Part shown: positions 10,285 to 14,752 of the stretch, one piece after another
Layout: the number at the start of each line of letters is the position of its first letter
How positions within the stretch are numbered: position 1 is the first letter of the stretch
Origin: an uncultured Flammeovirgaceae bacterium
GTDB taxonomy: Bacteria; Bacteroidota; Bacteroidia; Cytophagales; Cyclobacteriaceae
DNA length: 64,000 nt
NCBI GenBank assembly: GCA_913050055.1
Contig: CAJXAT010000001.1
Span: 1 to 64,000, forward strand
Direction: 5' to 3'
Made by a program: the position numbers and the translations under genes
Notes under the pieces: generated by a model
What the model was told of the DNA's origin: nothing
What the model saw: only the letters and a program-made list of their open reading frames with translations
Databases searched by the model: none

Positions 10285-10904
10285 CTATAGAGGCTCCGAG
10301 ATTAAGTAAGGGCATTCAATTGCCTGTATCTCTATGAAACCTTCACCCTCATAAAGAATATCTAAGGTTTCCAAGGGATCACGATTAGAAATGGGCTTTC
10401 CAAAAATAGTTGCCGTTAGTCTTTGAGATGGGTCAAAAGAGGCCGCACTATAACGATCGGATCCAGAAACCCATTTTTTCCAGAGCTTTTTTCTAGACAA
10501 AATATGTCGTTGTTCTGGACTGATGATTTGCAGGTCAAAATAAGGGGCATAGGGTTTCATTTAATTGATCAGTTGATGAGCATGGGCCTGGTTGGTGATG
10601 AAATAGTCACCTGGTACCTTTAATTTGTTGAGGTAGGAGATGATCCCTTCACAAAGGTCACCTGTAAGGGAGATGCATTCAATATGATCTTGAAAATCAG
10701 TATACGTAGATATATCAAGGTCTATTCCCATGATGACGTCTATTTTAAATTGATACATAAGTGTCTCTGGCACTGAATCGGACAAACAGATCACTTGGGG
10801 GCCCACTCCAATAAGTCTTCTAGTTTTGAAAAGGGAAACGCTGTGAGGCGGTCAATGATGAGGGCAGGTTCCTGGTTTTCTTTGACCAAATGATGGGAAG
10901 ACAA
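10285..10904 (-). pseudogene. Broken thiamin pyrophosphokinase-like gene (Bacteroidota type)
   Basis: The minus strand from a TTG at 10904 reads SSHHLVKENQEPALIIDRL, then EDLLEWAP; after a one-base loss near 10797 it continues in another frame as VICLSDSVPETLMYQFKIDV. A TAA at 10561-10563 follows HAHQLIN, and the same frame continues with MKPYAPYFDLQIISPEQRH to ...GEGFIEIQ and a stop at 10285. The SSHH(I/L)V-E-QEPAL opening and the general layout match my memory of the Bacteroidota thiamin pyrophosphokinase-like family, which makes TPP from thiamin and ATP. The location, directly downstream of the riboswitch-controlled thiamin receptor gene, supports this. The exact family call is moderate; that the gene is interrupted is clear. 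Confidence 0.65.
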
Positions 10905-10981
10905 TGGATTAAAATTTAGAGGTTACTTAGCGTTTGAATTTAGCATTTAATTATTATTTTAAAAAAACGTTTGGAGAAAAG

Positions 10982-11018
10982 AAAAGTTTGAAAGGAGGTC
11001 TACTCCTTCCAAACTTTT
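10982..11018 (-). terminator. Rho-independent-type hairpin after the TonB receptor gene
   Basis: Bases 10982-10990 pair with 11110-less-92 equivalents, i.e. 11010-11018 (nine pairs); after one A-C mismatch, 10992-10997 pair with 11003-11008 (six pairs), closing a five-base loop. The outer arms are A4/T4, so a U-run sits at the hairpin foot on both strands. It lies 7 bases past the TonB receptor stop, separating it from the pyrophosphokinase remnant. Confidence 0.7.
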
Positions 11019-11024
11019 TATCCA

Positions 11025-13484
11025 TTAGAATTTCAATGAAATTCCCATCAAGAAATTGATTCCAGCTTGCGGGTAATAATTATTTTGTTGATAAAGCGAT
11101 CCATCAGAAAGATAGCCCCAGGTATATCCATTAGATTCATAGGTAACATTCAGCAAATTATTAATCAAGAAATTTAATTCTATTTTTTGCATTCCAAAGG
11201 CTTGAAATTTATAAGCTAATCTTAGGTCATTGATTAAATAACTTTCAATCATACGGTCTTCATTGGACGTATTATCTAGGAATTGATTTCCTACAAATTT
11301 AGTGAGTAGCTGTGAGCTAAAACCTTGATGGCTGAAGGTGATGTCATTCCCTATCACGACATTGGGGCTAAAGGCAATATCGGTATTTGTAAATTCATTT
11401 TCTACGATATAGCGGTCATCAGTGAAGGCATAGTCAAAAACAATTTCAGTAAATTTTTTTATTTTGTTTCTACTCATGGCCACATTAAAGCCCCAATTCC
11501 AACGATCAGTTACGTTTACACCTAAAACCATTTCTATTCCTGCCCGATAACTATCAGGGGTATTGACCCTAATAGATGAACCAACATCATTGACGGCTCC
11601 TGTGAGGATGAGCTGATTGGTATAATCCATCAAATATACATTTGTTTCCAATTGGATGTTGTTCAAATTACCTCTGAATCCAAATTCAAAATTCTGAAGT
11701 TGCTCAGGACTTGGAATGTCTCCAACGGGAGCATCTATAAAGTCAGCACGCACAGGTTCTCTTTGGGCTATGGCAAATGATCCGTAAAGCTGAAAATTAG
11801 CATTAAGCTTATAAGTCAATCCAAATTTCGGATTAAAAAAAGTATACTTTTCTCCTACTTGATAGTTTGAAAGATCATTATCAGTACCTTCAGTTTCGTA
11901 ATCAATAGTACGCATTTGAAGATCACCAAAAATATTGATATTCGATGAAAGTTGATAATTGGTTTTTAAGAATACGTTAAAATCATTTTTAGTACTTGAT
12001 CCTTCATAATAACGATCTCTTATCTCGCTGGTACTGGCAAATTCAGACCATATAATTTCACCAAAATGCTTTCCCTTATAAGTGTTATATCCACCCCCGA
12101 GGGTCATTTGGAGATTGTCTTTGTTGTAATTTAAAGCATACGTAAATCCATAGAAGTCATTGTTAAGCCACCTACGTCTGATGAGATCCGTTTGGGTAAT
12201 TGTATCGTTTCCAACAATTATATTATCTAATTTATATTCAGTTAGATTGTCATTTGTCCGGTATTGCTCGTAGTAGCCCTCCCCGTGGGTATAGTGTCCT
12301 GAAACTGCCAGATTCAAATCATCATTGAAGGCGTGGTTTATGTGTAATTGGTTATGGTCCTGCTCGTAATGATCAATTTCATTTTCATAGAGATAATAAT
12401 TGAATCTTCGATCACTATTGAGTAGGTTATCTATTTGTTCATTACTATTATATTCCCCTGAATTATCAATTACTGCTTGCAGTTTAGTTTCATTTCCGGT
12501 CAATCGGGCTTCAGGGGTACCGTACCATGCTTGATATCCTTCCTCTTGTCCTCCGAAAATGAGGGACTTAATTGTTGTTTTTTCCCCGTAATATCCACCC
12601 GTTAAAAAATAAGAGTAAAGATCAGATTGTGCTCGATCTATGTATGCATCAGAAGTGATGCGCGATAAGCGACCTTCAAAATTAAAATTATTTTTAATGA
12701 GACCTGTATTGAACTGCGCATTAGTTTTTAGGGTATTGAAAGAGCCAATGGTTTGATTAATTTGAGCAAAGGCATCCTTAGATAGACCGCTAGATTGTAG
12801 ATTCACAGTGGCTCCAAATGCGGCGGCTCCATTAGAGGAGGTTCCTACTCCACGCTGAATTTGAATTTTATCTAGAGAAGAGGACAAATCGGGCATGTTA
12901 ACCCAATACACACCATGAGACTCAGAATCATTGATGGGTATCCCATTTAAAGTTACATTTATACGAGTCGCATCACTCCCTCTGATTCTCATTCCAGTGT
13001 AACCAATTCCCGCTCCAGCATCTGAAGTAGTAACCATTGAAGGCGTATATTTCAATAATATGGGTAAGTCCAATCCAAGGTTTCTTTCTTCGATTTTTTC
13101 TTTTGATACATTAGTATAGGTAGTTGGAGTTAATTCATTGGCCTTAATAGAAAAGTTAATGACCTCATCCCCAAAAACAGTAAGGGCTTTTAGTTCCTTC
13201 ACTTTGATGGGCATCCTGATGACTACTTTTGATTGTGAGCCGACTATAACTTGCTGAGTCACATAGCCTACAGCACTTACAATTAAGGTCTTTTGCTGTT
13301 CGGGGACATTCAGCTCAAAATATCCATCTATATTGGTGATGGTGCCGAAATCAAGATTTTTTATAACCACTGAGGCTCCAGGAATACCTTCATTATTTTC
13401 ATCCCAAACAGTTCCTGACACCATTCTTTGGGCATAGGATAGATAGTTAACCACGAGTAAGGTGGCATATATTAAGATTCTCAT
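11025..13484 (-). CDS. TonB-dependent outer-membrane receptor, probable thiamin transporter
   Basis: This 819-residue protein has a signal peptide (MRILIYATLLVVNYLSYAQ), a carboxypeptidase-regulatory-like domain at about 20-105 (VSGTVWDENNEGIPGASVVI), a plug domain at about 120-235 (MRIRGSDATRINVTLNGIPI), and a 22-strand barrel ending in the aromatic-aliphatic residues MGISLKF. It imports a ligand across the outer membrane using TonB energy. The ligand is inferred to be thiamin or a derivative because the mRNA leader carries a TPP riboswitch and a PnuC/PnuT-like transporter gene is next to it. Expression should fall when TPP is plentiful. A hairpin terminator follows at 10982-11018. The gene is full-length with no sign of damage. 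Confidence 0.9.
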   Translation of the reverse strand: MRILIYATLLVVNYLSYAQRMVSGTVWDENNEGIPGASVVIKNLDFGTITNIDGYFELNVPEQQKTLIVSAVGYVTQQVIVGSQSKVVIRMPIKVKELKALTVFGDEVINFSIKANELTPTTYTNVSKEKIEERNLGLDLPILLKYTPSMVTTSDAGAGIGYTGMRIRGSDATRINVTLNGIPINDSESHGVYWVNMPDLSSSLDKIQIQRGVGTSSNGAAAFGATVNLQSSGLSKDAFAQINQTIGSFNTLKTNAQFNTGLIKNNFNFEGRLSRITSDAYIDRAQSDLYSYFLTGGYYGEKTTIKSLIFGGQEEGYQAWYGTPEARLTGNETKLQAVIDNSGEYNSNEQIDNLLNSDRRFNYYLYENEIDHYEQDHNQLHINHAFNDDLNLAVSGHYTHGEGYYEQYRTNDNLTEYKLDNIIVGNDTITQTDLIRRRWLNNDFYGFTYALNYNKDNLQMTLGGGYNTYKGKHFGEIIWSEFASTSEIRDRYYEGSSTKNDFNVFLKTNYQLSSNINIFGDLQMRTIDYETEGTDNDLSNYQVGEKYTFFNPKFGLTYKLNANFQLYGSFAIAQREPVRADFIDAPVGDIPSPEQLQNFEFGFRGNLNNIQLETNVYLMDYTNQLILTGAVNDVGSSIRVNTPDSYRAGIEMVLGVNVTDRWNWGFNVAMSRNKIKKFTEIVFDYAFTDDRYIVENEFTNTDIAFSPNVVIGNDITFSHQGFSSQLLTKFVGNQFLDNTSNEDRMIESYLINDLRLAYKFQAFGMQKIELNFLINNLLNVTYESNGYTWGYLSDGSLYQQNNYYPQAGINFLMGISLKF

Positions 13485-13533
13485 TGTATTATTTTTAAAT
13501 TAACCAAAATAGGAGGAGGGGACCTCCATACGG

Positions 13534-13640
13534 TTATCATACGTCCCTTTTCGGCATTATCCGAGCAGGTTCAATGGGTATGATCTCAGCCCGAACTTAT
13601 CTTTTTTTTCAAAAAAGTAGGGCACCCCTTAACGCTACAA
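13534..13640 (-). promoter_or_regulatory. TPP (THI-box) riboswitch in the leader of the TonB receptor gene
   Basis: On the minus strand the leader contains, in order, AAGGGGTGCCC, GGCTGAGATCATACCC, GAACCTG, CGGATAATGCCG and AAGGGA. These are the conserved elements of the thiamin-pyrophosphate aptamer, including the CUGAGA pyrimidine-sensing loop and the P4/P5 arm. GCGT and ACGT at the ends can close P1 with one G-U pair. Downstream, before the ATG at 13484, a GGAGG/CCTCC hairpin (13515-13527) followed by TATTTT could be the expression platform. Binding of TPP would switch off the receptor. Confidence 0.93.
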
Positions 13641-13655
13641 AGATAGGATATTATT

Positions 13656-14180
13656 TTAGATATTCTGCAATAATTTTATGGCACAGGCCAATCTTTCGTC
13701 TTCAATACCCTTTACGATACCATAAGGAAGTTGATTATTTTTAAGATAGTTCAAATAAATATTAAAAAGTTCTTTTCTTCTGTGTGGATGCTCCCTTTGC
13801 GGATCATCCGTCCAAGGAATGTCGATGTCGGAGAGCAGATAAAAGTCATATTTTCGTTGAGCAATTTGACCAAGAATCCAAGGGTCTGTTCTACTATATT
13901 TATCATGACTCCAAATTTTTAAAACAATCAAGTTGGTGTCACAAAACAGATATTTATTAGCCGAAGTGGCGCGATCGTCTTCCCAAGTAAGTTGTGCTTT
14001 CGCAATTTCTAATAAGTCAGCCTCTCGATAATCTCTATCTAGGCGATCCAAATAAAATCTAGCAAATTCTGGAACCCATTCGGTGTAATAGGAAACCGCC
14101 AATTCTTGGGCTAATTTGCTTTTACCTGTAGACTCAGGACCTATGATTGCAATTCTTTTTATTTCAGTTTTATGTTCCAT
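13656..14180 (-). CDS. NadR-like nucleoside/vitamin kinase (AAA_28-type P-loop ATPase)
   Basis: This 174-residue P-loop protein has GPESTGKS at residues 14-21 (Walker A), a VPEFARFYLDRL segment near 35-46, FCDTNLIVLKIW near 78-89 (Walker B region), and DIPWTDDPQREHP near 118-130. It matches the kinase half of NadR, without the nucleotidyltransferase or DNA-binding parts. The start at ATG 14180 overlaps the pnuC-like gene by 22 bases, so the two are coupled. In Bacteroidota such kinases next to PnuT transporters are thought to trap the imported vitamin by phosphorylation; here thiamin is the likely substrate because of the adjacent riboswitch and receptor. Nicotinamide riboside is the alternative. 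The NadR-like fold is clear; the substrate is inferred. Confidence 0.82.
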   Translation of the reverse strand: MEHKTEIKRIAIIGPESTGKSKLAQELAVSYYTEWVPEFARFYLDRLDRDYREADLLEIAKAQLTWEDDRATSANKYLFCDTNLIVLKIWSHDKYSRTDPWILGQIAQRKYDFYLLSDIDIPWTDDPQREHPHRRKELFNIYLNYLKNNQLPYGIVKGIEDERLACAIKLLQNI

Positions 14181-14752
14181 GTTAAGTAGCCCCATATGGC
14201 AATTATGGTAAATATTAAGAATTGAAAGCTGGTCAAAGGCAAACCTTTGTAGATATAAAGTGGAACAGATATGCTGTCCACTATGATCCAAGCAATCCAA
14301 TGTTCAATTTTTTTTCTAGCCATCAACCACATACCCGTGATCGCGAGGGCAGAAGTAAGCGCATCCCAGCCAGGGACATCACTATCTGTGAGCCCGAGTA
14401 CAAACCGTATCAATAAAAAAGAAATTAGGAACATCAAAAAAACGATTGTATTTTCTTGCTTATTGTTTTTTGAAATGGGAACGGGGGTGCGGATTCCTTT
14501 ACCATGGGTCCAAAAGTACCATCCGTACATACTCATGACAAAATAATAGATCTGAATGCCCATATCACCATACAGCTTGTATTGAAAGGTAATACCGATG
14601 TAAATGATGATACTGATGATTCCTGTTGGATATACCCAAATTTGTTCTTTTTTGGCATACCAGACGCTTACTAAGCCGAAAAAAACAGCGGTCATTTCTG
14701 GGTAAGACGTATTGACCAATTGAGAGATAAATAAGCGTTGAAAGTCAGTCAT
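14159..14752 (-). CDS. PnuC-family inner-membrane vitamin transporter, probable thiamin importer (PnuT)
   Basis: This 197-residue membrane protein has about seven hydrophobic segments and the PnuC hallmarks: a YPTGIISIIIYIGI segment, the YGWYFW motif near 76-81, and a C-terminal WIIVDSISVPLYIYKGLPLT segment followed by IAIWGYLTW. PnuC proteins carry nicotinamide riboside by facilitated diffusion; the PnuT subgroup carries thiamin and is found with TPP riboswitches. Coupling to the NadR-like kinase and nearness to the TPP-controlled receptor support PnuT. The riboswitch lies downstream of this gene, not upstream, so this pair is not obviously under its control. A divergent guaB gene starts 95 bases away. 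Confidence 0.87.
   Translation of the reverse strand: MTDFQRLFISQLVNTSYPEMTAVFFGLVSVWYAKKEQIWVYPTGIISIIIYIGITFQYKLYGDMGIQIYYFVMSMYGWYFWTHGKGIRTPVPISKNNKQENTIVFLMFLISFLLIRFVLGLTDSDVPGWDALTSALAITGMWLMARKKIEHWIAWIIVDSISVPLYIYKGLPLTSFQFLIFTIIAIWGYLTWNIKLK

Follow-up and report, generated by a model that had tools for sequence, protein, structure and literature searches.

A 64,000-nucleotide stretch of DNA from an uncultured Flammeovirgaceae bacterium (contig CAJXAT010000001.1, positions 1 to 64,000; the window) carries a thiamin-related locus on its minus strand between 10285 and 14752. Weighed against its alternatives, this locus is likely to be the uptake and activation system of a thiamin auxotroph that dispenses with thiamin pyrophosphokinase (TPK), a stand-alone NadR-like kinase and ThiL together supplying thiamin pyrophosphate (TPP). 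In the proposed route, a TonB-dependent receptor would carry thiamin across the outer membrane and a PnuC-type carrier would take it across the inner membrane, whereupon the kinase would phosphorylate it to thiamin monophosphate, acting as a metabolic trap, and ThiL, encoded elsewhere, would convert the monophosphate to TPP. An aptamer before the receptor gene would repress uptake when the vitamin is plentiful, and the TPK-like gene behind the receptor would be an old pseudoenzyme now being lost in the genus. Gene content, gene order, co-occurrence and selection are observations; alongside them we infer the substrate and product of the kinase, the substrate of the transporter, the presence of ThiL in the window's genome and the direction in which the riboswitch acts.

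Genes of the locus were called by Pfam and NCBIfam profile searches of the window proteins, and the aptamer by the RF00059 covariance model. An earlier note on this DNA had listed an intact receptor, an aptamer, a PnuC-like gene, a NadR-like kinase gene and a broken TPK-like gene, and all were recovered on the minus strand where it had placed them. In the direction of reading, the locus begins with an intact PnuC/PnuT-type vitamin transporter of 197 amino acids (14159-14752; PF04973, 5.6e-57; NCBIfam PnuC, 1.6e-26), the sole PF04973 match in the genome, which overlaps the gene for the stand-alone NadR-like P-loop kinase, a proposed thiamin kinase of 174 amino acids (13656-14180; PF13521, 3.4e-30). 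The TPP-type aptamer (13526-13639), which starts 17 bases beyond the kinase gene, is directly followed by the gene for an intact TonB-dependent outer-membrane receptor of 819 amino acids (11025-13484; barrel PF00593, 1.5e-24; plug PF07715, 2.5e-11), which also has a carboxypeptidase-regulatory domain by profile search and was named OMR1/OMthi type by its context. Last comes the broken TPK-like gene.

The window's genome (G000; 2,774,807 bases in 209 contigs, 84.9% complete) was compared with nine congeners inside an order sample of 59 genomes, to which all ThiL counts refer, and with an evenly drawn class sample of 119 genomes. TPK (PF04263) was found in none of the ten genus members and in only two of the 59 order genomes, while the same search, run as a control on 14 named genomes, gave matches in seven, including one Bacteroides. 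A second canonical TPK elsewhere in the genome, an option left by the earlier note, was rejected for G000 and its nine congeners alike, none having a PF04263 match. ThiE and ThiC were not found in any of the ten members (0/10 each), and a supply of thiamin monophosphate from de novo synthesis was accordingly rejected for the genus. The kinase occurred in 10/10 members (represented in G002 by a fragment at the end of a contig), as did PnuC (in G004 as two pieces), and ThiL exceeded its cut-off in seven. Nine of the ten had exactly one TPP-type aptamer match, lying between kinase and receptor in every case; in the tenth, G002, the locus is cut by the contig end.

Across the order sample, 36 of the 39 genomes lacking both ThiE and TPK encoded the stand-alone kinase, and ThiL was present in 33 of these 36, the other three being G000, G001 and G009. 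Kinase frequency in the 39 differed from that in TPK-lacking genomes with ThiE (11/18; Fisher, 0.0075). In the class sample, the 73 ThiE-lacking genomes divided into 18 with TPK only, 50 with the kinase only, none with both and five with neither (Fisher, 6e-13). Counting one vote per family, the corresponding figures were 8, 25, 0 and 4 (Fisher, 1.3e-5), and the kinase was found in just 5 of 39 class genomes that had ThiE and lacked TPK (families f40, f60 and f61). Families f22, f32, f50 and f64 were mixed, each including genomes that had ThiE but no kinase and genomes that had the kinase but no ThiE, and in family f55 one genome had TPK and ThiE and two had only the kinase. The bypass through a NadR-like kinase and ThiL, suggested by the earlier note, is therefore well supported by co-occurrence in the order and class samples, since the kinase was never found with TPK in ThiE-lacking class genomes.

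The lists behind these profiles were compiled by hand from individual searches. In the class sample, the kinase was scored as present in 53 genomes with matches of at least 144.9 bits and in four with weaker or split matches (G066, G086, G111 and G162), and another 23, all of whose matches fell under 30 bits, were counted as lacking it. Scores of at least 117 bits (class) or approximately at least 90 bits (order) were taken as ThiE, weaker TMP-TENI matches being scored absent. In the order sample, G013 (a remnant) and G033 and G046 (two-domain NadR) were scored as without a stand-alone kinase, and G037, G039, G045, G056 and G058 were scored as having one on weak matches (53-84 bits), as was G002 on a fragment.

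Conservation of gene order extended the pattern beyond the genus. The succession of pnuC, kinase, aptamer and receptor was found in eight genus loci and in a ninth, that of G004, with pnuC and receptor split; the G002 locus is cut. The same four-part order recurred in G014, G016, G018, G020, G021, G023, G034, G036 and G043, and in G022 one extra gene and a second aptamer stood before the receptor. Within 29 class kinase loci taken with 1.5-kb flanks, PnuC was present in 22 and the receptor in eight. A pattern scan returned at least 54 named kinase loci, which are not a census, 44 titled Bacteroidota and 10 from other taxa; among the matches listed, the 21 most similar to the kinase locus of G000 were all from Bacteroidota, and the 54 included 21 with an aptamer, 18 with a receptor over 200 bits, 34 with PnuC and 13 with DUF4301. 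Aptamer-bearing loci came from, among others, Flavobacterium, Winogradskyella, Dokdonia, Arenibacter, Pontibacter, Hymenobacter, Crocinitomicaceae and Saprospiraceae. PnuC comes immediately after an aptamer in G024 and in a Niabella record, and in G054 the aptamer, a DUF6687 gene and PnuC stand in succession. Judged by the G024 and Niabella contexts, the PnuC homologue is probably a thiamin-transporting, PnuT-like carrier.

The kinase itself matched NCBIfam TIGR01526 (NadR; 5e-26) over positions 162-318 of 325, corresponding to the kinase half only, and no nicotinamide mononucleotide adenylyltransferase domain was matched in its 174 residues by Pfam or NCBIfam. Its AlphaFold2 model had a mean predicted local distance difference test score of 95.7, and Foldseek searches with this model returned NadR 8x7f as the best hit (E 3.6e-11, TM 0.87), then 1lw7 and other NadR structures, followed by thymidylate and adenylate kinases. 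Such results invite a conventional explanation, namely that carrier and kinase serve in standard salvage of nicotinamide riboside and lie by chance beside a thiamin receptor, TPP being made by an undetected enzyme. Names, fold and nearest solved structures all point to NadR, and true two-domain NadR proteins of 320-323 amino acids lie beside or near PnuC in G026, G033 and G046. Furthermore, the lid motif does not cleanly part the two kinds of kinase: after its D, 73 of 103 kinases no longer than 260 amino acids have P, and five two-domain NadR proteins have G, G, S, Q and P, so this motif was discarded as a criterion for stand-alone kinases. We nevertheless regard this explanation as unlikely, because the occurrence of this kinase is tied to that of TPK and ThiE, as would not be expected of a nicotinamide kinase, because thiamin receptors and TPP aptamers adjoin the kinase in several families, and because the kinase is without an adenylyltransferase half. 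That half is present in the two-domain proteins (G026, G033, G046, L202 and L209) and missing from the stand-alone kinases, and this difference in domain and length ruled out that all kinase matches are NadR.

We infer from the sequence comparisons that the stand-alone kinase makes thiamin monophosphate from thiamin. Transfer of a pyrophosphate by the same protein, giving TPP in one step, would agree with the one-for-one substitution of the kinase for TPK in the class profile. This we hold to be highly improbable, given that the nearest folds, NadR and thymidylate kinases, transfer single phosphates and that ThiL is kept in 33 of 36 kinase genomes without ThiE and TPK, even though the usual supplier of thiamin monophosphate is gone. 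It is this retention of ThiL, along with a fold that transfers single phosphates, that leads us to favour a kinase over a pyrophosphokinase. ThiK/YcfN is a choline-kinase-like thiamin kinase; the kinase described here matches PF13521 and NadR-type folds, not the aminoglycoside-phosphotransferase/choline-kinase fold.

Several observations weigh against a kinase- and ThiL-dependent route. The nearest solved folds of the kinase are, as described, those of NadR, and 33 of the 54 named kinase loci (among the matches listed) had neither aptamer nor receptor in the stretch examined. The aptamer of the window locus stands downstream of the kinase gene and hence has no direct control over it. ThiL did not exceed its cut-off in G000, G001 or G009 (85, 90 and 67% complete, respectively), where weaker matches of 83-86 bits were found; for G000, a search of the contigs thus returned only a sub-threshold match for the enzyme that the earlier note had invoked. 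The presence of ThiL alone also proves little, since G044 retains it with TPK and without ThiE. In the order sample, the kinase also occurs in 11 of the 18 TPK-lacking genomes that have ThiE, and three genomes have neither TPK, ThiE nor the stand-alone kinase: G013, with a 22-bit kinase trace containing stops beside an aptamer; G033, with two-domain NadR only and 89% complete; and G057, of 1.1 Mb. The five class genomes with neither enzyme comprise G083 (0.5 Mb), G092 (complete and unexplained), G146 (85% complete, both family-mates having ThiE), G155 (a ThiE fragment in an 86-amino-acid frame, the family-mate having ThiE) and G161 (both family-mates having the kinase). TPK and the kinase occur together in G122 and G158 only; the G122 kinase is fused to DUF4301 according to Pfam and a 736-amino-acid frame suggests the same fusion in G158. 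Lastly, the sampled genomes are related, and counting by family controls for kinship only in part.

The TPK-like gene behind the receptor survives in three pieces, and both the frameshift and the internal stop reported by the earlier note are visible in the sequence. Its frame opens at TTG 10904, piece 1 (10782-10904; read-through residues 1-41) holding the SSHH...QEPAL start, and changes within 10782-10803 beside a C/G run; piece 2 (10561-10806), in a different frame, ends in an in-frame TAA (10563-10561), after which piece 3 (10285-10560), the C-terminal part, remains open to 10285. When read through with X at the breaks, the remnant was 87-89% identical to intact 210-amino-acid genes of G004, G006 and G008 that sit behind the same receptor, and it is on account of this match that we consider it a real broken gene and not a chance frame. 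G003 and G007 also have broken copies, the former with a frame break besides two stops and the latter with one TAG, and tblastn found none behind the receptor in G001, G005 and G009 up to E 10. The G002 locus ends in the kinase at the contig end, before the TPK-like position. Counting G000, homologues were found in 26 of the 59 order genomes.

As to the remnant's link to the TPK family, pieces 2 and 3, the two pieces scanned, gave no match in Pfam or NCBIfam at E<=1, whereas an alignment to a PF04263-positive protein of G046 (44% over 66 amino acids, E 4.8e-8) shows common descent with a true TPK. Because that G046 homologue is a true TPK by Pfam (1.6e-25), the whole TPK-like family is tied to TPK. 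We aligned 22 unbroken homologues, including the intact genes of the three congeners, with two PF04263-positive references. GDFD, (K)TDLEK and GRRADH, which we take to be the active-site motifs of TPK, were absent from all 22, the three congeners included, and from the G000 pieces. The SSHH-x-QEPAL start, in contrast, was conserved nearly letter for letter in the 22, which (loci L005-L029) also retain a KW motif near the C-terminus; together these retained motifs suggest that the proteins have some non-catalytic role. A TPK overlooked by Pfam was ruled out by the absent catalytic motifs, on which ground the intact gene appears already to be a pseudoenzyme. What this genus is losing would accordingly be an old pseudoenzyme and not a working TPK.

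A divergent but active TPK, in a genus obtaining TPP by other means such as uptake of TPP or thiamin monophosphate, would explain why the N-terminal motif is kept, as is, in several genera, the place behind the receptor, and would fit the homology to the G046 enzyme. With the three motifs gone from 22/22 homologues, we judge it very unlikely. Moreover, G000, G003 and G007 have broken copies of the gene and no copy turned up behind the receptor of G001, G005 or G009, so its product is not the needed enzyme in those six genomes. PnuC-type carriers are expected to take an unphosphorylated substrate, which counts against uptake of phosphorylated thiamin.

Selection on the neighbouring genes differed from that on the remnant. 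Ratios of nonsynonymous to synonymous divergence (dN/dS), calculated with G001 and G007 left out, were 0.09-0.22 for the G000 kinase against six congeners, and 0.11-0.15 for the receptor and 0.17-0.24 for PnuC against five congeners each. For the TPK-like pieces against the intact congener genes they were 0.34-0.87 overall (0.34-0.42 for piece 2 and 0.67-0.87 for piece 3), although these rest on low divergence (dS 0.08-0.16) and to that extent tell against our interpretation. Purifying selection acts on the kinase, whereas the TPK-like gene is decaying. Errors of assembly or sequencing in a gene that is intact in the cell are an unlikely cause of the breaks. The frame change does fall at a C/G run, and the G004 locus (L093), with its receptor in two frames and its PnuC broken, resembles sequencing error and calls for caution over breaks seen in single genomes. 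However, the TAA is a second, independent lesion in the same gene, and dN/dS is raised. The copy in G003 has a frame break in addition to two stops, that in G007 has a single stop, and the gene is missing at that position from three congeners. Even were the gene intact, the proposed TPK-free system would stand, because the product has no TPK motifs.

These comparisons alter the reading given in the earlier note, which had the usual final enzyme lost locally along an unusual salvage path. Intact homologues without catalytic motifs and the lack of TPK in 57 of 59 order genomes indicate that TPK was lost long before the remnant broke, and the route is not peculiar to one genome. What the note observed at the locus was right, and its local interpretation of TPK loss was wrong in time and scale; the proposed bypass is well supported by comparison.

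The window aptamer scored 41.4 bits against RF00059 (E 4.3e-7 in a 251-base search), below the Rfam gathering score of 54.3, and is therefore missed by a standard scan. A likely reason is its P4-P5 arm (13569-13546), in which the pyrophosphate-contact loop is reduced and the usual 3x3 J4/5 loop is missing. With a model built here we found 89 aptamer matches at 86 places (three places carried two locus ids): 57 were canonical, 20 of the short-J4/5 form, five had a nearly continuous P4-P5 helix (L203, L210, L217, L218 and L220) and seven were of other forms. Most came from loci selected by their kinase or by a high aptamer score, and the share of the short form is therefore no population estimate. 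The 20 short forms represent 15 distinct arms and are those of the window (13546-13569) and of loci L091-L098, L177-L179, L193, L208, L212, L213, L215, L216, L219 and L234, all nine genus loci examined being among them. Their arm reads CCU, G, a 5-bp P5, loop, P5, A and AGG. The junction G-A was present in 15/15 distinct arms, and P5 pairs one to five were standard in 13, 15, 13, 14 and 15 of the 15, with several pair types; in the window the outermost P5 pair is a C-A mismatch. The CUGAGA pyrimidine-binding segment was intact in the window and in 20/20 short forms.

A CG step is missing from the window aptamer and from 24 others of the short or nearly continuous form; we take this step to be C77 and G78 of E. 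coli thiM. In one account of the thiM aptamer, C77 and G78 are the nucleotides to which the pyrophosphate is directly bonded, whereas the pyrimidine is placed between G42 and A43, with bonds to G40 and G19 (PMC7824784). Since pyrophosphate-binding loop nucleotides are missing and the pyrimidine pocket is kept, the ligand of the variant may be other than TPP. All 25 variant aptamers lie in kinase loci, and a receptor follows in 23, the stretches of L215 and L219 ending too soon; because sampling favoured kinase loci, we claim no exclusivity. A wider scenario, which we offer tentatively and think doubtful, is that a NadR-derived thiamin kinase plus ThiL replaced TPK in thiamin-auxotrophic Bacteroidota, part of which rebuilt the riboswitch to sense thiamin or thiamin monophosphate. 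Equally tentative is the form of that rebuilding, in which the helix would have lengthened and the pyrophosphate loop shrunk to a single G-A pair within it, or become almost completely paired, with the pyrimidine pocket left intact.

Other genes recurred near these loci. A DUF6687 (PF20392) gene was found in G022, G032, G036 and G054 (L105, L123, L126 and L134), between the receptor and the TPK-like gene or, in G054, between aptamer and PnuC, and its position suggests a thiamin-linked family. DUF4301 is fused to the kinase in L175 (G122), L193 and L203 and directly follows it in eleven named loci (L208, L210 and L212-L220); in DUF4301 loci the aptamer, where within the stretch, lies further downstream. 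TMP-TENI genes adjoin the kinase by position in ten class genomes, and of five such neighbours tested, three exceeded the Pfam cut-off, one fell below it and one had no match. A TMP-TENI neighbour was not used as a general link, a 208-amino-acid upstream gene in three Flavobacteriaceae-type loci looking different by eye. In five order genomes a ThiE-like and a ThiL-like gene, divergent and each scoring under its family cut-off, lie as a pair near a TPP aptamer (G018:C149:25936-28490, G022:C1:5241593-5244145, G034:C1:604199-606758, G036:C38:428-3105 and G046:C34:30670-33259).

Genome surveys deduce needs for B1 compounds from gene lists. The accessible text of a gut-genome reconstruction gives ThiL or ThiN as the last step and ThiK, ThiM and ThiN as B1 salvage enzymes (PMC6593275). 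In another study, omr1 and ThiL without biosynthesis were called salvage in eight Flavobacteriales and three Cytophagales metagenome-assembled genomes, the same gene pattern as here, and the portion of that paper available to us does not name the enzyme between imported thiamin and ThiL (PMC12236431). Searches of open-access literature showed no report of a thiamin kinase role for this protein or of the aptamer variant, and a mention in subscription journals is possible. In 50 of the 73 ThiE-lacking class genomes there is no recognised first salvage enzyme unless the NadR-annotated kinase is counted; if our interpretation is correct, many such genomes would gain a complete salvage route, the nicotinamide/NadR annotation would be corrected and the kinase would constitute a second, unrelated thiamin kinase family. 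Under the wider scenario outlined above, the variant riboswitch would read the imported vitamin instead of the finished coenzyme, and, if its ligand does differ, it would provide a direct test of how riboswitch specificity changes through loss of half the binding site.

Several known systems resemble the locus in part. In E. coli, ThiK converts thiamin to thiamin monophosphate and ThiL converts this to TPP; the proposed chemistry is the same, but the window kinase belongs to another family (PF13521). The window aptamer shares with the RF00059 TPP riboswitch its architecture, the CUGAGA pocket and its place before a thiamin receptor, and differs in a shortened J4/5, missing nucleotides of the reported pyrophosphate contact and a score under the gathering cut-off. 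Unlike NadR, the kinase has no adenylyltransferase half and stands in a thiamin context. With the ribosylnicotinamide kinase half of NadR (1lw7, 8x7f and 6gye), as far as described in the accessible text of PMC7221760, it shares fold, P-loop, PnuC partner and a proposed trapping of the vitamin by phosphorylation. The closest parallel in organization is thiamin uptake through PnuT-Tnr3, Tnr3 being a TPK, and OMthi in Bacteroides thetaiotaomicron; from what is accessible of that work (PMC5613172), both systems comprise a TonB receptor, a PnuC-type carrier, TPP aptamers and an activating enzyme beside the carrier. In B. thetaiotaomicron it is Tnr3 that activates thiamin, whereas at the window locus a NadR-like kinase lies beside the carrier and the TPK-like gene lacks the catalytic motifs and is broken.

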